Source of the DNA: Methanosarcinales archaeon
Lineage (GTDB): Archaea; Halobacteriota; Methanosarcinia; Methanosarcinales; Methanocomedenaceae
DNA: 46,196 bases
NCBI GenBank assembly: GCA_021108405.1
Contig: JAIOQW010000146.1
Coordinates: forward strand, 1 to 46,196
Direction: 5' to 3'
The notes below the pieces were generated by a model. It did no database searches. It saw only the letters and a program-made list of their open reading frames with translations, and was not told the DNA's origin. Below, piece after piece: positions 3,825 to 46,196 of the stretch; position 1 is the first letter of the stretch; every line of letters starts with the position of its first letter. The position numbers and the translations under genes are program-made.

Positions 3825-5561
3825 TTATCCTTTATACATTTCTTTAGTAAGGAAGGTAATCTCATTCGGATAAAGCACATAACCTATCACATCAACATGT
3901 TGTCCTACAAGTTGTTTCTCATGAAAGATGAACATTTCAGGGGATTGTTCTACAATGATTGCCTGTACCTGGTCGTAGTAGCCTTTTCTCTCACTTTGAT
4001 CCATGGCTATCTTTGCATCTACCAGTAACGAATTTACTGTATCATTTGAATACTGTATCCATCCATTTTCCATAAAACCGGCTGTTGAGTCAAAGTGTTT
4101 GGTCAGGAAGCTGTCCGGGTCACCAACTGGCGCTGAATTATATGAATAGAATGCCAGATCAAAGTTACCACTTACCATATCTTCCTTTATAGCGGCTGAT
4201 TCAAGAAGCTGGAGTTCTACATCGATACCGATATCTTCCAGTTGTATTTCTATCATCTCTGCACCGGGCTGCATGGTAGCCCGAGAGGTGTATAATTTAA
4301 TAGTAAGCTGGAAATCCTCTCCATTATATTCCAGTATACCGTCGTTATCGGTATCGGAAATTCCTGCTTCTTCCAGCAATGACAGGGCCTTATCCTTATC
4401 ATACGGATATCCGGTAAGATCATCATTTGTCCATGGGAAGACCGATGGGAACATCCCGATGGCTGATACGCCACCAATACCTTCCAGCGCCGCATCAACG
4501 ATCTGCTCACGATTAATGGCATAGTTGATCGCCTGTCTTACCCTTATGTCATCAAGAGGCGCTTTAGCATTATTCACAAATATAAAGTAGAGGCGTAGTG
4601 TCTCGTCAGTAACAATTCTTAGATCCGAATCACTCTCGATCTTGCTGACCACTGGTAACGGAAGACCTATCGTTATATCAACATCTCCACTCTGGAGCAT
4701 AATCGACCTTGTCTCGCCTTCACTAAGGTAATAAATCTTTGCACTTTCAAGTTTAGCTTTACCATCCCGGTAATTTTCATTCCTTACAACTGATAGACTA
4801 ACTGAAGGCTCGTGACTTTTATACTTAAACGGACCGGTACATACCGGAGTTGTATTGAGAAGACCGGCCTCACCTGCCGCAGGACTCACCATGGAAACGA
4901 GCGGATCAGTCAGGGTTGCTATTGTGAGTGCATATGGCTCGGTCGTGGTGATCTTTACAGTATGTTCATCTTCTGCGACAATAGATTCGATATGTTTATA
5001 CTCATTGTGTCTTGAATTTAATTCATCTGTAACTCGTTCGATGGAATATACTACTGCATCTGCATTGAATGGAGTTCCATCATGGAAGGTTACATCTTCT
5101 CTGAGATGTATCTGCCACTGCGTATCACTTAACTGTGTATACCCCGTAGCAAGTTCGGGTGTAAGTTCAAGGTCTTCGTTATAACAAAATAATGTTTCTG
5201 CGATGCCAGCTTGCCTCATATACCACCCGGTCCATTTTACCCCGGGATCAAGTGTATGTGACGGACCGAATATCATCCCTATGTTCATGTGTCCGCCCGG
5301 GAATCCTACCCGATCAAGAATGATCGATCCGGTGTAGGTCACATCTTCTGTATTGATACTGCCATCTTGATTTGCATCGGCTAACGGACTCTCCTTATCG
5401 TTTGTAAGGATCATCCGCTCGATCATGGTTACATCGAGTGTATTAATCTGTTTATCTCCGTTTGCATCTCCAAAAAGCTCAGCACTTACACATGGCATTG
5501 ATACCAGGAGTACCACACTTATGATCAAAACAGTAATTCCAAATCTAATATCTCTCATCAT
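3825..5561 (-). CDS. dockerin-containing solute-binding protein, SBP_bac_5 family (peptide/nickel ABC transporter)
   Basis: Signal peptide (…PCVSA), duplicated dockerin Ca-binding repeats 'GDANGDKQINTLDVTMIERMIL' and 'ADANQDGSINTEDVTYTGSIIL', then SBP_5 sequence ('LRDEVTFHDGTPFNADAVVYSIER'-like). Confidence 0.9.
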   Translation of the reverse strand: MMRDIRFGITVLIISVVLLVSMPCVSAELFGDANGDKQINTLDVTMIERMILTNDKESPLADANQDGSINTEDVTYTGSIILDRVGFPGGHMNIGMIFGPSHTLDPGVKWTGWYMRQAGIAETLFCYNEDLELTPELATGYTQLSDTQWQIHLREDVTFHDGTPFNADAVVYSIERVTDELNSRHNEYKHIESIVAEDEHTVKITTTEPYALTIATLTDPLVSMVSPAAGEAGLLNTTPVCTGPFKYKSHEPSVSLSVVRNENYRDGKAKLESAKIYYLSEGETRSIMLQSGDVDITIGLPLPVVSKIESDSDLRIVTDETLRLYFIFVNNAKAPLDDIRVRQAINYAINREQIVDAALEGIGGVSAIGMFPSVFPWTNDDLTGYPYDKDKALSLLEEAGISDTDNDGILEYNGEDFQLTIKLYTSRATMQPGAEMIEIQLEDIGIDVELQLLESAAIKEDMVSGNFDLAFYSYNSAPVGDPDSFLTKHFDSTAGFMENGWIQYSNDTVNSLLVDAKIAMDQSERKGYYDQVQAIIVEQSPEMFIFHEKQLVGQHVDVIGYVLYPNEITFLTKEMYKG

Positions 5562-6154
5562 GCATTACCTCCTTTTACCCGAAGAACGAGATATGCTACA
5601 ACAAATAGCACTATCACAAATTGTATTTGAAATCCTGGTGTTTCAGTTTTATCCGTTTTTGTCGGTTCAGTTGCAGAACCGGATGTATTTTCAATATTAT
5701 TTTGATTTGTTGGTATTTCCTGGGCCATAGTATCAACGAGTAAAACATTAGATATTTCCATAACACAATCTCCTGGTACTATTGTTTCAAAATGTATCGT
5801 TGCCAGGGATCCGGATCCGGATATCCCTTCAATTCCAGGAAGATTGAAAAGCACCCTGATGGTGTTTGCGCTAAGCGCCTGACTGTCTGCAGGTATGGTT
5901 TTTCCATTAATAGTTCCGTTACTAATGCCTATAACCTTCACTGCTGCAGGATCGAAATATATATCGAACTGCCCAGAATCAAGATCATTGACATTTTCCA
6001 TATCAATTGTAACATTAAAGTTGCCATCAACCATATCAGGAGCATTGAGATTGATATTTATTTGATCAGCTACGGCGGGAGTTATAAACATAGTATATAA
6101 TAATATTATTATCGATAAAGATAATATGGGATAACTTATTTTTTTAAATATCAT
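5558..6154 (-). CDS. membrane-anchored cohesin-domain protein with C-terminal PGF-like TM tail
   Basis: Signal peptide; cohesin-like 'FNVTIDMENVNDLDSGQFDIYFDPAAVKVIGISNGTI…GSGSLATIHFE'; tail 'ETPGFQIQFVIVLFVVAYLVLRVKGG'. Stop overlaps the next gene's start (GCATGATG). Confidence 0.85.
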   Translation of the reverse strand: MIFKKISYPILSLSIIILLYTMFITPAVADQININLNAPDMVDGNFNVTIDMENVNDLDSGQFDIYFDPAAVKVIGISNGTINGKTIPADSQALSANTIRVLFNLPGIEGISGSGSLATIHFETIVPGDCVMEISNVLLVDTMAQEIPTNQNNIENTSGSATEPTKTDKTETPGFQIQFVIVLFVVAYLVLRVKGGNA

Positions 6155-30963: not shown

Positions 30964-31380
30964 TCACGCTGCAAGTTCATGCAGAATAATCTCCATCACG
31001 GGCTTGAAATCCAGATATTTATTCCACGTCCTCTCAACAAAACAAAACCGCACTTCCTCATTACGGCTGAATATGACCTCTCCTCGTGTAACTTCATAGC
31101 AAAAGGAGTTGGGGGCATGGTTCAGCACCCTGACATCCACCGGTAACCTGATCCTCCGCTCCAGCATCGAGGCGATGGACAGCTCGCATTCGAGTGGGTC
31201 CACATGTTCTGTTCTGGTCAGATATACAGCCACATCGATATCATGGAATCCCCAATCTTCCGGAAAACTTCCATAGATATAGGCGAATTCCACTACTCTG
31301 ATAGTAGCAATTACCTCTTTTAGTATCCCACGTATCCTATTTTTTTCCCTATTACCGGGTTTGAATCTCTTATCCTTCAT
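30964..31380 (-). CDS. mntA: MntA-type minimal nucleotidyltransferase antitoxin
   Basis: 'YGSFPEDWGFHDIDVAVYL' nucleotidyltransferase motif; paired with HepT-like gene. Confidence 0.8.
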   Translation of the reverse strand: MKDKRFKPGNREKNRIRGILKEVIATIRVVEFAYIYGSFPEDWGFHDIDVAVYLTRTEHVDPLECELSIASMLERRIRLPVDVRVLNHAPNSFCYEVTRGEVIFSRNEEVRFCFVERTWNKYLDFKPVMEIILHELAA

Positions 31381-31382
31381 AT

Positions 31383-31811
31383 CTATTCCAGAAAGTGCAC
31401 GATTTCCTTAATATAATTCTCAAAATCAACAAGATCCGAAGTCAGTATATCAAATATTTTTTCATTATCGATCTCCCAGTAAATATGCACAAGCATGTTG
31501 CGAAATCTTGCCATATTCCCCAATCTTTCAGTAAGCTCTGCCGATATCACATCATATTCATGCAGGATTGTAAAACAATCTGAATAACTTTCAGGCACTC
31601 GTTTAAATTTTCTTGCAATGATATGGTTGCATATCGATATGGATGCTTCGATCGCTGTGATCAACCTGTATTTGGCAGAGTCTATCAAATCCGGATCACT
31701 TAAAAAAACATCCCTGCCTTTTGAGGAGATGCCATTTAATCTTTCCAATGACTGCTGGATCTCACTGATCTTTGCTGCAACAAGATTTGGATTTATAGCA
31801 TCACCGTTCAT
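31383..31811 (-). CDS. hepT: HepT-type (DUF86) HEPN toxin
   Basis: HEPN RX4HXY motif 'RNMLVHIY' and adjacent MNT partner. Confidence 0.85.
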   Translation of the reverse strand: MNGDAINPNLVAAKISEIQQSLERLNGISSKGRDVFLSDPDLIDSAKYRLITAIEASISICNHIIARKFKRVPESYSDCFTILHEYDVISAELTERLGNMARFRNMLVHIYWEIDNEKIFDILTSDLVDFENYIKEIVHFLE

Positions 31812-31943: not shown

Positions 31944-32672
31944 TCAGGATCTATTAGATCTTGATTCCGTAAACTGCTTTGATAGAGACTCTACAGGATT
32001 TTTCATTATATACATTACTGCCATGGCACAAGTAGTACTTGCTATAAGATATGCAATGGCTGCGCCTTCTATTCCTATTGATCTAATAAGTAGTATTGCG
32101 AGGACAAGCGTGATTACTGCTAATGCAAAGATTTCCGCTGCTGGAAGATTCTGCTAGTAGAGAACTTGAAATAGCATTAGAAATCCCATGAAGCAGACCG
32201 GTTACTGTCATTGCTATATAGAAATAGGCAGTAAATTCGGTAGAAATATTATTAGTGATCATTATCTGAAGTGCAAGACGGGGAAGACTATAAAAAATTG
32301 CTGCCAGTTAATTGCCAGCTGAGTATCCGGCCATATTCCTAATTTTAACGGTGGTGCCCAGATGTCAATTCCTGCTATGAATATAAATGAAAATAAAAAA
32401 GAGGCAATAATGGCGGCAGTCAAACACGAATTGATGATACGTTTGGTATTTTTTGGCTCTCTGGGTAGATAATATAAGAATAAGATGGGAAATCCCAGTC
32501 AGCTGATCATTGATATCAAGAACATGGCTGATATTAAAGCTGAGACAGTTCCTACTTCTTCAGGAGAATAGTAGCGTGCTGTTATCACCCAAAAAAAGAA
32601 TCCTAACACCAGGTTCAGAAGATTTGTAGACATTAGATAGAGTGCGTTTTTTATTAAAGAATCATTATACAT
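31944..32672 (-). pseudogene. decayed polysaccharide flippase (Wzx/MATE-like)
   Basis: N-term MYNDSLIKNALYLMSTNLLNLVLGFFFWVITARYYSPEEVGTVSALISAMFLISMIS* and C-term ALAVITLVLAILLIRSIGIEGAAIAYLIASTTCAMAVMYIMKNP; internal stop/frameshifts; paralogue at 42956-44230. Confidence 0.8.
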
Positions 32673-32816: not shown

Positions 32817-33641
32817 ATGACTAATAGGCAGTATCTTCTTATTTTTGCAGTTGTTCTATTTTTATTTTTCTTTAAGACCATTGTCTGGCTCGTTGAATCC
32901 TGGATATATAATCCATATTATTCTCATGGGTTCTTAATACCTTTAATTTCAATATTTTTAATCCGGAGTAAAAAGGATGAAATATCATTTCAAGAAAAAA
33001 GAGATACTTCAGACACTGGTTTTTATATGTTGATCACAGGTCTTGTTTTTTATGTAATAAGTTTTTTCTGGACTATCAGGTTTCTCTCAGGAGTCGCATT
33101 AGTAATAACAATTGCCGGAGTGATCTTTTTCTTATATGGAAAGGAAGTATTAAAAGAGCTGGCTTTTCCGGTATGTTTCTTGGTATTCATGGTTCCTCTG
33201 CCACTTAACGATTACCTTGCTCCTTTTTTCCAGTATATCTCAACTGTCTGTTCTACACAATTTATAAATATGATAGGCATTTCTGCATATTATACTGGTT
33301 ATAATATCCATCTTTCCAGGGGCATTTTTGAGGTTGCTCTTCCCTGCAGCGGGCTTAATTCAATCATTTCTTTAATGGCAATTTCAGCTCTTTTTTGTTA
33401 TATGATAGAGGGGTCGGTTAAAGCAAAAGTAATTATATTTATTTCATCCATTCCAATGGCTCTTATGGGTAATATCTTAAGAATAACTGCTGTATTATTT
33501 ATTGCAGATAGGTATGGAAGCGAAGTAGCATTAAGTTTCTTTCATAGTTTTTCAAGTCTACTTCTTTTTAGTGTTTCACTTATCGGATTATTCCTGGTAG
33601 GGAGGTGTTTCGGACGGCTGAGATTCAAAAAGATCCTATAG
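32817..33641 (+). CDS. archaeosortase/exosortase family transpeptidase-like membrane protein
   Basis: 'NPYYSHGFLIPLISIFLI', catalytic-type motifs 'ALPCSGLNSIISLMAISALF' (Cys), 'MALMGNILRITAVLFIA' (Arg), 'FFHSFSSLLLF' (His). Confidence 0.93.
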   Translation: MTNRQYLLIFAVVLFLFFFKTIVWLVESWIYNPYYSHGFLIPLISIFLIRSKKDEISFQEKRDTSDTGFYMLITGLVFYVISFFWTIRFLSGVALVITIAGVIFFLYGKEVLKELAFPVCFLVFMVPLPLNDYLAPFFQYISTVCSTQFINMIGISAYYTGYNIHLSRGIFEVALPCSGLNSIISLMAISALFCYMIEGSVKAKVIIFISSIPMALMGNILRITAVLFIADRYGSEVALSFFHSFSSLLLFSVSLIGLFLVGRCFGRLRFKKIL

Positions 33642-34399
33642 CCCTTATAGGTATCATACTTCTGGCATATGTATTGCTCTTTCTTTTTGCACCACATGAT
33701 ATCATGGATTTTACTGTTGTTGATACTGAATACTGGCATGAGACCGAAAACCGGATGATTGTTAAGTCAGCATATGATTATAATAATAAGGAAAGTATAG
33801 AGCAGTTTCCTGCAACCCTGGATGATTGGAGCAGTTTTGATTATAAGTATTCTGATGTGGTTTATGATAATCTAAATGCAGAAGCTGTCTTAACCAGGGG
33901 ATATAAGAATGAGAATGATCTGGTATGGATGGATATTATCCACAGCAAGGTTGGAGAAAGTTTTCATAAACAGAAGATCTGTGTGGAAGGAGGAGGCTGG
34001 ACTGTAGTAAATGAGTCTGTAGTGCGAATCGATATAGGTGCATCGAAATACAATCCCTATACCTTCTTATGTGCTAACAGACTGGATATTGAAAAGGATG
34101 GTAGAAAACAGGTTATGATGTACTGGTTTTTATTCAAGAAGTTCGGATCAAGTAATGCTGTAACAATGATACGCCTCTCATCGCCTGTATCAAATGATTA
34201 TTCAGAGACTTTTGATACTATGAGCCAGTTTGTAAGAGATCAGCTTTTTGAAGAAATGTATGAAAATGTAGGCAAGACGCCTACTGTAATAGAAATGCTT
34301 TTTTATGGTAATAAGATATTAGCTGCTGTTGTCATATTCCTTGCTTTATTTATTCCTTTAGGATTGATTTTTAACAGGAAGATCTTGAAGAAAAGGTAA
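33605..34399 (+). CDS. EpsI-like exosortase-associated protein (GTG start, overlaps archaeosortase gene by 37 bp)
   Basis: N- and C-terminal TM; 'YENVGKTPTVIEML' tail; soluble DUF3485/EpsI-like region; position directly after the sortase. Confidence 0.65.
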   Translation: MFRTAEIQKDPIALIGIILLAYVLLFLFAPHDIMDFTVVDTEYWHETENRMIVKSAYDYNNKESIEQFPATLDDWSSFDYKYSDVVYDNLNAEAVLTRGYKNENDLVWMDIIHSKVGESFHKQKICVEGGGWTVVNESVVRIDIGASKYNPYTFLCANRLDIEKDGRKQVMMYWFLFKKFGSSNAVTMIRLSSPVSNDYSETFDTMSQFVRDQLFEEMYENVGKTPTVIEMLFYGNKILAAVVIFLALFIPLGLIFNRKILKKR

Positions 34400-34468
34400 C
34401 CGAGATCAACGGAAAAGAGTTTATTCCGAGAAATTTGAAATTCTGGAATAAATACAGGATGATAAAAT

Positions 34469-34618
34469 AAACTAATTATTGAAATAAAAACAGTCAAAGA
34501 GTTTGATTCTATTCATTTAGCACAATGTTTGAATTATCTTAAGATCACTGGCCTTAGACTGTGCCTGCTTATCAATTTCAGTAAACCGAAGGTAGAGATA
34601 AAAGGGATCGTGAATTAA
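34469..34618 (+). pseudogene. C-terminal fragment of a GxxExxY (PDDEXK_3-like) protein
   Basis: Translates KLIIEIKTVKEFDSIHLAQCLNYLKITGLRLCLLINFSKPKVEIKGIVN*, matching the conserved end of the family; no N-terminus upstream. Confidence 0.75.
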
Positions 34619-34660
34619 TCAAAATAGTAACCATTAACCTTATTAAGCATTATATTTATA

Positions 34661-34693
34661 TTTGTGTTCTTGTGTTCATCCGCGGTTAATTAT
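34661..34693. repeat. short-word repeat remnant (GTGTTCTTGTGTTCATCCGCGGTTAA)
   Basis: Same style of direct-repeat word as the 14.2-14.4 kb and 6.25 kb elements. Confidence 0.4.
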
Positions 34694-34805
34694 ATTAACT
34701 CACAGGAAAACAATAAAATGTATCTTTTATTAATAAAAAACATTTAAATAAGATACATATATATATATCAACAAAAATTTTATTTGGTAATTTCAAGGTT
34801 AAAAA

Positions 34806-35042
34806 ATGTTCACTGTAATCACAACGTTATCTAATATTCATATGCAGATCTCACCGGAAATACTTGAGAGCGGTGGAGCGCTGGCTACTGTATCTTTAAT
34901 ATTAACCAGTTTAATGGCTCTTTTACTGGTGGATTCGAAATACTGGAATAAATGGACATCCAGTACAACTGATATGTGTACTTATCCTTTACTGGTAGTT
35001 TTTGCTGCAATTGTTATATTTAAAATCATGATGGTCCTATAA
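34806..35042 (+). CDS. small membrane protein (78 aa)
   Basis: Two hydrophobic segments; convergent with CPBP gene, 6-bp 3' overlap. Confidence 0.5.
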   Translation: MFTVITTLSNIHMQISPEILESGGALATVSLILTSLMALLLVDSKYWNKWTSSTTDMCTYPLLVVFAAIVIFKIMMVL

Positions 35043-35822
35043 CAGTAAAGGGAATATTCCAAAGACAAATACATTAATAGTACCGTGGATCACTACAATA
35101 AAAGGGAGGCATCTTGTTTTCTGGAAAATAAAACCGATCAACAGTCCGGCAAAACATGCAAAGAGGATCTCTCCTCCCAGGCCGTATCCCGAATGCATAA
35201 TTCCAAAAAGTATGCTTGTCATCAATAGACCGCGGTTCATTTCTAAAAGTTTCTCAAACCTGCATTGTAATATGGATCTGAAGATCAACTCTTCTACTAT
35301 TGGGATAATAATAAACATGATCAGGATTAAATTTATTATATTAGGTACTGAAGAATTATCGATAATCGGTTCCGGATGAATGATGTAAAATTCTATCCAA
35401 GATAATAAAAATCCAATAAATAAAGCGGCTGGTATGTATAATAGTGGATTAAGTTGCATTTTATCACAATTCAATCCTACTTCCTTTTGTGTAAATCCCT
35501 GGTGCTTTAATAGCAAATATATAGGGATAAACATTATACCATAAATAATAGAGATCCAGTAGATGCTGGGAACAAAGAATATGGGAACAGCCATATTAAC
35601 GATCCTTAATAAAAGCAGAAGAATGATGGATTGCAGAAGGGGTTTGATATTCTGATCCTCAAAGGTATGGGCAATATTTTTATCAGTTACGATTAGAATA
35701 GTAATAGCCTGAAGATTTATTATATGTACTACCATACCAGCCAGGGGATTACCTGTATATATTAGAATTTCTCCTATAATTAATGCCGTTACTGTTAAAA
35801 ATGATAGTAAAATAGATCTCAT
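35037..35822 (-). CDS. CPBP (CAAX/ABI) family intramembrane metalloprotease
   Basis: 'IPIVEELIFRSILQCRFEKLL' (EExxxR) and 'LFGIMHSGYG' / 'IVVIHGTINV' motifs. Confidence 0.9.
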   Translation of the reverse strand: MRSILLSFLTVTALIIGEILIYTGNPLAGMVVHIINLQAITILIVTDKNIAHTFEDQNIKPLLQSIILLLLLRIVNMAVPIFFVPSIYWISIIYGIMFIPIYLLLKHQGFTQKEVGLNCDKMQLNPLLYIPAALFIGFLLSWIEFYIIHPEPIIDNSSVPNIINLILIMFIIIPIVEELIFRSILQCRFEKLLEMNRGLLMTSILFGIMHSGYGLGGEILFACFAGLLIGFIFQKTRCLPFIVVIHGTINVFVFGIFPLLL

Positions 35823-36013
35823 GATTCTGCAACATTTATCCAGAGGTGCAGTGACTTGTAAGGTTCACTAAAGTTATTTTCTTTAAATAATAGAAATTTT
35901 ATTTTCATATCAGTTCCTGTTTTAATTCCAGTTATATGCGTATGTGGATCATTAATAACATATTCACACTTATATGAACACTTTACGATAGCCATTTTAT
36001 TGCGCCATTCCAA
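35819..36013 (-). CDS. small CxxxC...HxH protein, translationally coupled to the CPBP protease
   Basis: 64-aa ORF, ATGA overlap with 35822; 'CSYKCEYVINDPHTHITG'. Confidence 0.45.
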   Translation of the reverse strand: MEWRNKMAIVKCSYKCEYVINDPHTHITGIKTGTDMKIKFLLFKENNFSEPYKSLHLWINVAES

Positions 36014-36123
36014 TTATAGATTCTCATTAGCATGATGAGATTACAAAGTAAAAAATTATATATAGCATAATGGTATTAAACTACATAGTAATATTTTTTA
36101 CTACGTAAGAAGGAGGTAGTGTT

Positions 36124-36819
36124 TTGGGTATTGTAAATAAACGTGGAGAAGAAAAAAGTGTAAGTATAGTGATACCTACATTAAATGAGGCATCAAATAT
36201 AAAGCATGTTTTTTCGAATCTCCCTGATTTCATTGATGAAATCGTGGTCGTGGATGGAAATTCCACAGACGGGACCATAGATGAGATCAGGAAATTGCGA
36301 AGTGATGTCAGGATCATAGTGGAAGAGCCCGGTGGAAAAGGTGCTGCCATGAAAACCGGATTCTTAAGGGCCACCGGTGATCTGATAATCATGATGGACG
36401 CTGACGGCAGCCATGACCCCCGGGAAATTCCAGGACTTATTGAACCCATTTTAAATGGATATGATGTCTCAAAAGGATCGCGTATGATGCAGGGCGGAGG
36501 TTCGGCAGATATTACTCCTTTCAGGTCAATGGGAAATAAGATATTCGTTACTATGGTAAATACATTGTATGGGGCGAATTATACTGATCTATGCTATGGA
36601 TACAGGGGCTTTAAGAAAGAAACCCTTGCGAAGATAGACTGTACTGCCAATGGTTTTGAGATTGAGACCGAACAGTCCATACAGTTTACAAAAGCCGGAC
36701 TCAGGGTTAAGGAAGTGCCGAGCTTTGAGGCAAAAAGGATGAATGGTAATTCTAATTTGAATTCGTTCAGGGACGGGTGGAGGATATTAAATACGATAGT
36801 TAGGGAATATATTAATTGA
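36124..36819 (+). CDS. glycosyltransferase family 2 (dolichol-phosphate mannosyl/glucosyltransferase-like)
   Basis: 'VSIVIPTLNEASNIKHVFSNLPDFIDEIVVVDGNSTDGT', 'DLIIMMDADGSHDPREIPGLIEPI'; RBS AAGGAGG upstream. Confidence 0.92.
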   Translation: MGIVNKRGEEKSVSIVIPTLNEASNIKHVFSNLPDFIDEIVVVDGNSTDGTIDEIRKLRSDVRIIVEEPGGKGAAMKTGFLRATGDLIIMMDADGSHDPREIPGLIEPILNGYDVSKGSRMMQGGGSADITPFRSMGNKIFVTMVNTLYGANYTDLCYGYRGFKKETLAKIDCTANGFEIETEQSIQFTKAGLRVKEVPSFEAKRMNGNSNLNSFRDGWRILNTIVREYIN

Positions 36820-36851
36820 TTATTTTAAAAAATATTGAAGGTGAATTAACA

Positions 36852-37355
36852 ATGAATAAAATAAATAAAAGTTTTATAATATTAGTATGTTTGATGTCAA
36901 CATTGATTATAGCGAGTGGATCTGCCGATCTGGATATTGATCCTTTTGGGGTACAAGATGTACCAAAGGGTTCTACCTTTATTTACAATGTAACACTTAA
37001 CGGCACTGATAGCACTGATATTCTACATTGGTATTCAAATGACTCCAATCTTACTGTGAGGATGCGAGAGATACCAAGTGGATTATGGACAGACTATAAC
37101 CAATCAGGAAACATTAGTTTTACTTACTCTGGTGGAAATATTCCCAAGTATTTTGAACTAGAGACTTTTCCGGATGTAAATATGCCAAATAAGCGTGTTG
37201 ATATTACTGTATGGGGATATGAAACCCCTATGGGAATTGCAAAAGCAGCGGTTACCGGGTCTGTAAATGTGACGCCTGAACTTAGTACTATAGCTCTTAT
37301 GTCAGCTGGTCTGTTAGGTCTGATTGGATTAATAAGGTGGCAGAGAAAGCATTAA
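36852..37355 (+). CDS. secreted protein with PEF/PEP-CTERM-like sorting signal
   Basis: Signal peptide; tail 'VTPELSTIALMSAGLLGLIGLIRWQRKH'; start set at Met 36852 behind GAAGGTG. Confidence 0.85.
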   Translation: MNKINKSFIILVCLMSTLIIASGSADLDIDPFGVQDVPKGSTFIYNVTLNGTDSTDILHWYSNDSNLTVRMREIPSGLWTDYNQSGNISFTYSGGNIPKYFELETFPDVNMPNKRVDITVWGYETPMGIAKAAVTGSVNVTPELSTIALMSAGLLGLIGLIRWQRKH

Positions 37356-37443: not shown

Positions 37444-38364
37444 GTGAGTCTTATTAAAGTCTCGATCATCGTCTGCACATACAGCAAAGAGTTATTTCTC
37501 GATACTATTGAGTGCATACGATCATTATCCAGCCAGGATTATCCTGATAAAGAAATACTGCTGGTGATGGACAAGAATGAGGAACTATGCCAGATGTACC
37601 ATGAGTCTCTCCCGGCATCAGTAGATCTGATTATCAATCCCATCCCAGGCCTCTCAACAGCTCGCAATTGCGGGATACGGCATGCAACCGGTGATATCAT
37701 TGTGTTCATTGATGATGATGCTACTGCAGGACCTGACTACCTGGCCAAGCTGTTCAGGAATTACGAGGATGAGACGGTAATCGGCGTAGTGGGCAAGATC
37801 CTGCCCTGGCGGACACCTGGTTATCCTGAGGAGCTGTACTGGGTAGGCGGGTTTACATATAAGGGATTTCCAGAGGAGCGGTGTGAGGTAAGGAATGTGC
37901 ATGGGTGCAATATGTCCTTTAGGAAGGGGGCGTTTGAGCGGGCCGGGCTTTTTGATGTGAGTCTGGGCCGGGTGGGGCGCAAGCTGGTGACTGCTGAGGA
38001 GACTGAGTTCAGCATAAGGGCGCTTGGTACTTTTCCTGGGTCGAGGATTATGTACGATCCTGAGGCTGTGGTGTACCATAAGGTGCATGAGTACAGGGAG
38101 AGGTTCTGGTATCTGATTAAGCGGGGGTATTATGAGGGGATGTCCAAGGCGCATATTGAGAAGTTGTACAAAGGTGTTAATGGGGGGGCGCTGAAGACTG
38201 AGGATGCATATCTGAAGTTTTTGTTGGGGAGGGCTGTGCCGGGGAGAATGAAAAATATTTGTATGGTGAGGGATGTTATGAGGAATGCGAAAGAAGCGGT
38301 GTCGTTGATGGCTGTGATTGGAAGTGTAGGTTTTGGGTATTGTGTTGGTAGAATTAAAATTTAG
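37444..38364 (+). CDS. glycosyltransferase family 2 (GTG start)
   Basis: 'VSIIVCTYSKELFLDTIECIRSLSSQDYPDKEILLVMD', 'GLSTARNCGIRHATGDIIVFIDDDATAGPDYL', 'FRKGAFERAGLFD'. Confidence 0.92.
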   Translation: MSLIKVSIIVCTYSKELFLDTIECIRSLSSQDYPDKEILLVMDKNEELCQMYHESLPASVDLIINPIPGLSTARNCGIRHATGDIIVFIDDDATAGPDYLAKLFRNYEDETVIGVVGKILPWRTPGYPEELYWVGGFTYKGFPEERCEVRNVHGCNMSFRKGAFERAGLFDVSLGRVGRKLVTAEETEFSIRALGTFPGSRIMYDPEAVVYHKVHEYRERFWYLIKRGYYEGMSKAHIEKLYKGVNGGALKTEDAYLKFLLGRAVPGRMKNICMVRDVMRNAKEAVSLMAVIGSVGFGYCVGRIKI

Positions 38365-42955: not shown

Positions 42956-44230
42956 CTATTTAAAAATAGAATGTTTATATTCGATTATCATTATCAGAGG
43001 AATCGTAATTAAATTTCCAGTAAGCCATGATATTCCAATTCCGTTCAATCCAAAGTTATTAATTAATGAAATATAGCTGCCTACTAAAGTTATAATCATA
43101 ATTATCCCATTAATTATTACAACAATAATGACCTGTTTACTAATATTTTTTATTGTGATATACACAGTATTTATGGCAAATGGTAAACTGGATATTGCCA
43201 ATATTTTAACAATATAGCTCCCTTCTTCTAGGTATTCATTTCCGAATAAAAGTAAAATTTGATCACCAAATAATAAAATGAACAGTAGTGATGGAATTAA
43301 AATTAAAAATATATATATAAATGATCTCTTGACATCTCCAATAATTTTTGCATTTGAATTGGACCCTTCTGCAAATAAAGATTGTGAAATACTTATTGAA
43401 ACCGCAAATAACAGTCCTGCAATATTCCATGAAATCCAAAAATATGCATTAATTTCCGGAGATAATATTATTGTTATCATAAGAGGCAATATTAATCCGA
43501 TAGACATACTGAGAAAATTTGCTATATAATTCATAAATGAAAACTTAAACATATTTTTAATAATATCAAATTTGATAAATATTTCTGTTGTATAGTCTGG
43601 AATTATTTTTAAAACTAACCAAATTCCTACAATAAAGGCAATTATAATTCCTACACCCCATGATAAGTATATACCAAATGCTTCAAGTGGGACTAAAAAT
43701 ATTAATATGGAAAGTCTAAAAATTCCAAAAACCGAAATTTTAAAAAGTGTATATTTTGATTTTCTTAGTGAAATTAATATACTATTCATTTGAGCAGAAA
43801 TTGTACTAACACATGTTAATATAATAAAAAAAACTGCGAAATATATGTTATTTTGCAAAAATAAGAGTTTTGGCATCCATAACTTTAATCCGAATAAAAA
43901 ACAAATCGAAACAATTGATGATACAAATAAACTTAGTGTAAGACAAGAATTTATCATATTTTTTTTTTCATTTGAATTTGGAAGAAACCGAATTAAAGAA
44001 ACATTGAATCCGAGCATTGATATCATAGAAATTAAAATCATTGCAGAAATTGTGGCTGATCCTAACCCAACATCTGTTGAAGAATAGTATCTTGCTGCTA
44101 ATATCCAAAATACAAAACCAGATGCGCTAATTATCAGATTTGTAAATATTAAATAAATTGCATTTTTTAAAAGAGAGTTAATAAATTGACTCTTCATATG
44201 ATTAAAATTCATTTTAATTCCCACATACAA
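42956..44230 (-). CDS. polysaccharide flippase (Wzx-like, MATE superfamily)
   Basis: 'LLKNAIYLIFTNLIISASGFVFWILAARYYSSTDVGLGSATISAMILISMISMLGFNVSLIRFLP'. Confidence 0.92.
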   Translation of the reverse strand: MYVGIKMNFNHMKSQFINSLLKNAIYLIFTNLIISASGFVFWILAARYYSSTDVGLGSATISAMILISMISMLGFNVSLIRFLPNSNEKKNMINSCLTLSLFVSSIVSICFLFGLKLWMPKLLFLQNNIYFAVFFIILTCVSTISAQMNSILISLRKSKYTLFKISVFGIFRLSILIFLVPLEAFGIYLSWGVGIIIAFIVGIWLVLKIIPDYTTEIFIKFDIIKNMFKFSFMNYIANFLSMSIGLILPLMITIILSPEINAYFWISWNIAGLLFAVSISISQSLFAEGSNSNAKIIGDVKRSFIYIFLILIPSLLFILLFGDQILLLFGNEYLEEGSYIVKILAISSLPFAINTVYITIKNISKQVIIVVIINGIIMIITLVGSYISLINNFGLNGIGISWLTGNLITIPLIMIIEYKHSIFK

Positions 44231-44689: not shown

Positions 44690-46196
44690 TTATATTTCAG
44701 CTTCATATATGGAACCATCAAGGATAATACTTTTAATTAGCTCTACATCTTCATTTAAGTATTCTATTAAAACATTGGCATTAAAAGTATAAAATATTAC
44801 TTTATCTTCTCTATTTTCATTTTTTCGGATTGTAATATTATTAACCCATCGTTCATCTGATTTTTGATTTGAATAAGTACCAAACACATAGTCAAATTCT
44901 TCGTCTATTTCATTATTTTCTAAAATAATGGTACTATTTGAAAAATTTGAAATATATATCCCAAAATGCCTTTCATTATCCGAAATCAAATTATTCTTAA
45001 TAATATAATCTTCTCCACCTCTTTCAATTACAATACCTGTTTTATAGTTTGAATTAAAAGAATTATTTTGAATAATTATATTTTTGGAATTCCAAATCGT
45101 CATTCCATGCCCATACCCCCAACCATTTTCAAATGAGTTACTTTTTTCAACTGTAATATTTTCAGCATTCCAGATAAAAAAACCATCGTAATAAGAATTT
45201 GTTACGGTGTTATTAACAAATAGTAGATGATGAACTTTATTTCCATCTCCACCTTCAATATCAAAGCCTTCTTTGTTTGTATGATTTATATAATTATTTT
45301 CAAAATTACTGTAACTTATGCTGTTAAGAATAGCCATTCCTTCAAGACCTGCATTTAAAATTATATTATTTTTTATATTATGATTAGATGGGATGCCATT
45401 AGTATTGTAAATATTAAAAATTAACCCATGAGATGTTGAATTAATTATAATTGAATCAGTAATGCTACTGTTAGTAACATTACCATCAAAACTAATTCCA
45501 TTTAAAAGCGGATGTTGTACAGTAACATTCGAAATTTTAACATTTGAAGTATATGGTGAACATCCACGGATTGAAATTTCACCAATCCTATTGAAATTTG
45601 ATTGTTTTATCTCACCTCTTAAAACATTCAGATAGACAATTCCCCTTTCTTTTGGTCTTTTATGATAATTATTTTTTGAAGTTAGTCCTATATTAGATAT
45701 ATTGCTGTTCGATACCTTTAAATCAGATTTGTGACCTTCTGCAACTATAAATCCTCTTTGTTTGGCTTCGTCATCAGCTGGTGCTTTTTTGATAGTATCC
45801 CACGAAGAAAGATTGATTCCATTTATTTCAGCCTTTCCAAATATTTGAATATATGCCACTGTTGAGTCATCTATTGATAACAGCCGTAGTTCTTCTGTAT
45901 CACTATTATTTATGAATAAAGTGCCATTTTCATTCACAATAATAGGAACCTTAAGCAACCAAACTTTAGAATTTATCTCTTCGAGCAAGGAATTATTGCT
46001 TAGAATGTAATGAACTTTTGATAAATTGCAGCTATTGTGCACATAAATTATATTATTTTTAAGAGTTATTATAGAAGGGGGGGTGGGAGTAGGTTCAACA
46101 GTCGGCTCAACAGTCGGTTCAACAGTCGGTTCAACAGTCGGCTCAACAGTAGGTTCAACAGTAGGTTCAACAGTAGGTTCAACAGTAGGTTCAACA
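44690..46196 (-). CDS. right-handed beta-helix surface protein with VEPT-repeat linker; 5' end beyond window
   Basis: Frame stays open upstream of the track's GTG at 46042: (VEPT)n-PTPPSIITLKNNIIYVHNSCNL…; many NxFxxN/SxxNxxxNN NosD-like repeats. Confidence 0.85.
   Translation of the reverse strand, partial: VEPTVEPTVEPTVEPTVEPTVEPTVEPTVEPTVEPTPTPPSIITLKNNIIYVHNSCNLSKVHYILSNNSLLEEINSKVWLLKVPIIVNENGTLFINNSDTEELRLLSIDDSTVAYIQIFGKAEINGINLSSWDTIKKAPADDEAKQRGFIVAEGHKSDLKVSNSNISNIGLTSKNNYHKRPKERGIVYLNVLRGEIKQSNFNRIGEISIRGCSPYTSNVKISNVTVQHPLLNGISFDGNVTNSSITDSIIINSTSHGLIFNIYNTNGIPSNHNIKNNIILNAGLEGMAILNSISYSNFENNYINHTNKEGFDIEGGDGNKVHHLLFVNNTVTNSYYDGFFIWNAENITVEKSNSFENGWGYGHGMTIWNSKNIIIQNNSFNSNYKTGIVIERGGEDYIIKNNLISDNERHFGIYISNFSNSTIILENNEIDEEFDYVFGTYSNQKSDERWVNNITIRKNENREDKVIFYTFNANVLIEYLNEDVELIKSIILDGSIYEAEI
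46091..46196. repeat. 12-bp tandem repeat (GGTTCAACAGTMG) encoding VEPT, 8.8 copies visible
   Basis: Units differ at the Pro codon (CCG or CCT) and Glu codon (GAG or GAA). Confidence 0.9.

Follow-up and report, generated by a model that had tools for sequence, protein, structure and literature searches.

Exosortases are membrane enzymes that cut tagged surface proteins. The bacterial PEP-CTERM/EpsH system (exosortase A type; Haft 2006, PMC1569441) combines a multi-helix exosortase carrying Cys, Arg, and His with an EpsI gene directly downstream, a tripartite tail on the target protein, and a glycan gene cluster. In the exosortase and archaeosortase biology set out in PMC1569441 and PMC11980579, a protein is exported, held back by its tail, cut close to the motif, and transferred to an anchor. 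Archaeal C-terminal sorting is represented by ArtC/PEF-CTERM and ArtA/PGF-CTERM, and EpsH-type domains in ANME genomes have been tallied in a table (PMC5244752). Proteases of the CPBP type are connected with sorting in two further settings: exosortase-CAAX protease fusions (XrtE/VPEID; fusions in PMC1569441) and TIGR03008 link an exosortase to such a protease, and the myxosortases MrtX and MrtJ (PMC11980579) are CPBP glutamic proteases tied to C-terminally tagged surface proteins.

Here we describe a locus in a 46,196-nt stretch of DNA (the window) from a Methanosarcinales archaeon. It shares the four features of PEP-CTERM/EpsH listed above and is a variant of the PEP-CTERM/exosortase system, not a new kind. 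Our preferred reading, to which we give a probability of about 0.7, is that the locus encodes an archaeal PEL-CTERM/exosortase system serving a single substrate and that the neighboring CPBP protease and small membrane protein (SMP), in some loci joined by a DUF1616 protein, are more likely a shared accessory.

Gene content of the locus

The genome is 3.67 Mb in size and 99% complete and encodes methyl-coenzyme M reductase; its relatives in the same order include Methanoperedenaceae, Methanogasteraceae, and Argoarchaeum. By elimination, and judged by its dockerin and cohesin content, it probably belongs to an ANME-2a/b-type organism. All seven ORFs named in the first-pass annotation of the window were present at the positions it gave, and, as the gene set is conserved in relatives, an accidental grouping of ORFs is ruled out. 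The genes are as follows:

32817-33641 (+): EpsH/XrtA-like exosortase (XRT), 274 aa (PF09721, TIGR02602, conserved residues, AlphaFold)
33605-34399 (+): EpsI/DUF3485-like protein (PF11984, adjacency to XRT, alignment)
34806-35042 (+): SMP, 78 aa, two predicted membrane helices, no family model (alignment)
35037-35822 (-): CPBP (Rce1-like) glutamic intramembrane protease (PF02517, EExxxR and HxxxN motifs)
35819-36013 (-): C-terminal remnant of a DUF1616 protein (PF07760, end of the profile only)
36124-36819 (+): AglJ-like GT2 of the dolichyl-phosphate sugar transferase type (TIGR04182, PF00535)
36852-37355 (+): candidate substrate with signal peptide, predicted beta-sandwich, and PEL-CTERM tail PELSTIALMSAGLLGLIGLIRWQRKH
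37444-38364 (+): second GT2, AglG-like (NF041394, 234 bits, below the cutoff of 440)

The second GT2 gene starts 89 bp past the substrate gene and opens a glycan cluster that extends from 37444 to an intact flippase-like gene at 42956-44230 (-). A right-handed beta-helix (NosD-like) protein encoded at 44690-46042 (-) closes the cluster. On the other side of the locus, positions 32083-32672 (-) hold fragments, among them the beginning of a polysaccharide flippase (28.1 bits) in what looks like a decayed copy, and positions 30964-31811 (-) hold an MNT nucleotidyltransferase/HepT-like ribonuclease pair in a typical toxin-antitoxin arrangement.

XRT is an EpsH/XrtA-like exosortase

XRT scored 185.5 bits against PF09721 (cutoff 25.7; E = 1.5e-54) and 154 bits against TIGR02602, above the cutoff of 105.55. 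Against the XrtA model TIGR03109 it reached 178.6 bits, short of the cutoff of 208, and against the ArtC model TIGR03762 it reached 23 bits, the cutoff being 100. The label "archaeosortase," under which the gene had first been described, is thus replaced by EpsH/XrtA-like exosortase, and the model scores rule out an archaeosortase A, B, or C identity. The predicted catalytic residues are Cys177 (in PCSG), Arg222 (NILRI), and His243 (FFH); when aligned across 13 relatives, Cys177 and Arg222 were invariant and His243 was nearly invariant. The AlphaFold model was confident (pLDDT 87), and searches of the PDB by sequence and by fold returned no solved relative.

Phylogenetically, XRT was sister to Methanoperedenaceae enzymes (support 99/95), within a group that also includes Methanogasteraceae enzymes. 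An exosortase was absent from 15 of the 16 sampled genomes of the window's own family, and the remaining genome (G001) had a divergent, partial match. The exosortases of ANME-1 and Altiarchaeota scored best on XrtA/XrtW-type models, all below the cutoffs. Since the window's genome also encodes a true ArtC at another locus (280.5 bits against the cutoff of 100) and an ArtA at a separate locus, three C-terminal sorting enzymes coexist in it.

The start of the EpsI gene overlaps XRT by 37 bp, and an EpsI gene directly followed XRT in nearly every locus examined. The first description of the protein as EpsI-like held for the Pfam DUF3485/EpsI family (PF11984, 59.3 bits against 26.1; E = 5e-16) but not for NCBIfam TIGR02914, where 33.0 bits fell below the cutoff of 42.8; alignment revealed a conserved FHxxKIC motif. 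Unlike PEP-CTERM/EpsH, the window system is archaeal, lies below both the XrtA and the EpsI equivalog cutoffs, and showed no Prs genes beside the locus.

A PEL-CTERM tail co-occurs with the exosortase

The tail of the window protein had been called PEF/PEP-CTERM-like, a description that the curated models did not bear out. We observed no match to PEF-CTERM (TIGR03024) at E ≤ 1 and none to the PEP-CTERM models (TIGR02595/PF07589), which scored PEL tails below cutoff (10.8 against 16 for the homologue in locus L020). A profile built on tails of proteins encoded close to archaeal exosortases had the consensus PxPELSTxxLxSxGLLxLxGYV...RR; the window tail scored 57 bits against this profile, which includes that tail. 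The profile picked up such a tail close to most of the archaeal exosortases in the set; PEL-CTERM recurs beside these enzymes. Archaeal loci carried PEL, occasionally PEA, tails; bacterial loci in the same set carried PEP.

The window protein was the single PEL match in its own genome (E = 1e-14), the runner-up having E = 0.19. Among 60 genomes (this one and 59 relatives), 11 had both XRT and a PEL tail, 3 had XRT only, 3 had a tail only, and 43 had neither (odds ratio 53, p = 3e-7), and removal of the genomes used for the profile left 5/3/3/43 (odds ratio 24, p = 8e-4), p-values that overstate independence because the genomes are related. The exceptions were G041 (97% complete) and G058 (78%), which had several PEL tails and CPBP-SMP with no XRT detected; G044, which had XRT and no strong PEL tail; and G034 (61% complete), G036, and G001. 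With PEF-CTERM, XRT had no association (odds ratio 1.04), and a genome-wide search found four PEF proteins at other loci, served by the separate ArtC. The PEF-CTERM identity of the tail was rejected by model and by co-occurrence alike, and this sets the window system apart from ArtC/PEF-CTERM. That a 99%-complete genome has a single PEL tail, together with the co-occurrence across 60 genomes, supports the first-pass proposal that the system is dedicated to one surface protein; PEP-CTERM/EpsH differs on this point as well. The PEL tag was not described in the literature that we searched, the 2012 archaeosortase paper being outside the search. Since curated models miss the tag, PEL-tagged surface proteins of anaerobic methane oxidizers go unannotated.

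The substrate is a 167-aa protein whose most likely start is the ATG at 36852. Short secreted homologues are encoded upstream of XRT in two loci of Methanoperedenaceae type, L020 (6156-6644) and L037 (4035-4529), and in L177 and L179 a related protein adjoins SMP/CPBP. The predicted structure of the substrate has a beta-sandwich and then a single helix, at moderate confidence (pLDDT 75; 54-63 for the other four models). The fold matches were generic beta-sandwiches, with TM-scores mostly 0.5 or less (normalized to the query), and we read no function from them.

By analogy with the described systems, Sec would export the substrate, and its C-terminal helix and RWQRKH end would retain it in the membrane. 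On the outer face, the exosortase, acting through Cys177, Arg222, and His243, would cut near the PEL motif together with EpsI, and it would probably attach the newly formed C-terminus to a lipid or a glycan. CPBP-SMP(-DUF1616), which would not be the sorting enzyme, could for example clear or further process the membrane-embedded tail. A natural pair of one enzyme and one substrate is a clean test case for attachment by an archaeal exosortase and for the role of EpsI.

The CPBP-SMP-DUF1616 module occurs with several sorting systems

The protease scored 59.6 bits against PF02517 (cutoff 22.4; E = 3.8e-16), and E177, E178, R182, H246, and N250 were invariant in the alignment. With its EExxxR and HxxxN motifs intact, its original description as a CPBP intramembrane protease is confirmed as CPBP/Rce1-like; it had no significant match in the PDB by sequence. 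Tail-to-tail with its gene lies that of SMP, called a small membrane protein at the outset: it belongs to a two-helix family (by prediction) that has no model in Pfam or NCBIfam yet is conserved in relatives. The supposed small CxxxC/HxH protein is instead the truncated C-terminal end of a DUF1616 protein, relatives of which are full length (~287 aa) in L018, L019, and L020. Because the letters CSYKC and HTH fall outside the homologous part, the motif is not meaningful, and we rejected a metal-binding CxxxC/HxH protein.

Co-occurrence of the flanking genes with the sortase in other genomes, which the first-pass annotation had proposed to check, was found. XRT-EpsI-SMP-CPBP is conserved in Methanoperedenaceae and in Methanogasteraceae/ANME-2c, and in several Methanoperedenaceae a full-length DUF1616 gene adjoins that of CPBP. 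ANME-1 and Altiarchaeota have XRT-EpsI with CPBP nearby, in Altiarchaeota also with DUF1616. Most archaeal XRT loci have a CPBP gene; 760 kb of control DNA had none at E ≤ 1e-20. In two Methanoperedenaceae loci (L018, 19-1179; L020, 7491-9035), proteins with DUF1616-like and S-layer domains are encoded directly upstream of the exosortase.

The module also extends well beyond the exosortase. The SMP profile matched 31 of the 60 genomes, far above the number with XRT. SMP with a convergent CPBP gene, often with DUF1616, was present without XRT in Methanosarcinaceae-type genomes, in the window's family, and in other Methanoperedens; these XRT-less modules adjoin TIGR04279/PGF-pre-PGF proteins with a PGF-CTERM tail (L170) or a VPXXXP-CTERM tail (L171), or else PEL-tagged proteins (L177, L179). 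The window's genome itself has a second GT2-SMP-CPBP module without an exosortase (L174, contig C79, 3829-5971). Conversely, three genomes of the Argoarchaeum group (G022, G026, and G038) had XRT and PEL tails with no SMP match. In a heuristic scan, tail-anchored proteins near the module were only modestly enriched (odds ratio 2.7, EpsI and glycosyltransferases removed).

Because the module turns up in PGF, VPXXXP, and PEL contexts, a role restricted to this sortase is disfavored, and the view that CPBP belongs to this enzyme alone was not sustained. CPBP-SMP(-DUF1616) probably assists archaeal C-terminal sorting in general. More tentatively, and with odds that we put at well under even, it could be a companion common to exosortase/PEL, ArtA/PGF, and ArtB/VPXXXP in which SMP partners the protease and the shared task is to process the membrane-embedded tail once the sorting cut is made; tail clearance may be the simplest task common to the modules. 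Exosortase-CAAX fusions and TIGR03008 offer a likeness. The window genes are separate, however; its CPBP scored 18 bits against 81 on TIGR03008, and the module adds SMP and DUF1616 and also occurs without an exosortase. A link of CPBP-SMP-DUF1616 to sorting was not described in the literature searched (again with the 2012 archaeosortase paper outside it), and this shared module is a more novel lead than the exosortase/PEL pair. Methanosarcinaceae include genetically tractable methanogens; as the module also occurs there, its role in surface-protein maturation is directly testable.

Glycosylation and alternative roles for the neighboring genes

The first-pass annotation had proposed that the GT2 glycosylates the substrate and that CPBP targets its signal or prepeptide, both as dedicated parts. 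An AglJ-like GT2 is indeed encoded (155 bits against TIGR04182, equivalog cutoff 325; PF00535, E = 7.5e-28), with 32 bp between its gene and the downstream substrate gene, and the mature substrate region (116 residues, assuming the signal-peptide cut) contains six N-glycosylation sequons against 1.7 expected (p = 0.0014). AglJ-like GT2s also lay within 5 kb of 15 of the 31 CPBP-SMP modules, compared with 2 in the 760 kb of control DNA, a figure that is only indicative because some of those neighbors went into the GT2 model. These neighbors are not the same orthologue as the window GT2, which is missing beside most XRT loci, so the GT2 is no fixed partner and was rejected as an obligate one. 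The substrate homologues have only 1 and 0 sequons, and the CPBP module is common to other sorting systems. We therefore consider dedicated roles for both proteins unlikely. Glycosylation of the substrate is in itself plausible from gene order and composition, since a sequon-rich substrate sits between two glycosyltransferase genes; as these lie on the same strand, co-transcription with the glycan genes is also plausible.

Alternatively, CPBP with SMP could itself be the PEL-CTERM sorting enzyme, much like a myxosortase, with the exosortase acting elsewhere or in a second step. CPBP-type sorting is known experimentally for MYXO-CTERM (PMC11980579), G041 and G058 have the tails and CPBP-SMP with no XRT detected, and genes for PEL-tagged proteins directly adjoin SMP/CPBP in L177 and L179. 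Yet the window CPBP fell under every myxosortase cutoff (MrtJ, 39.8 against 75), and the Cys that is invariant in MYXO/JDVT tails is missing from the PEL tail, on which grounds we rejected a myxosortase identity; unlike myxosortases, it also has an exosortase alongside. Many genomes that lack PEL tails have the module, G022, G026, and G038 keep XRT and PEL tails with no SMP match, and one Methanoperedens nitroreducens locus (L036, 11500-16000) keeps XRT-EpsI-SMP but only about 23 residues from the C-terminus of CPBP. That CPBP is itself the PEL sorting enzyme is accordingly distinctly improbable.

Least probable, and in our estimate very unlikely, is that these are independent neighbors in a cell-surface island and that the substrate, merely tail-anchored, belongs to the glycan operon: the opposite-strand CPBP gene does separate XRT-EpsI from the GT2 and substrate genes, GT2-substrate-GT2 are co-directional and closely spaced, and the island is low in GC and contains remnants of a flippase, but gene order is kept across several families, PEL tails track XRT, and CPBP marks most archaeal XRT loci and not the control DNA.

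Other surface proteins in the window

At 3825-6154 (-), the window encodes a solute-binding protein of the peptide type that carries a dockerin domain at its N-terminus, and its gene is overlapped by that of a secreted protein that has a cohesin domain and ends in a PGF-like helix. This cohesin-dockerin pair would apparently tether a transporter's binding protein. In dockerin and cohesin content, the genome resembles that reported for ANME-2a (PMC9012536).
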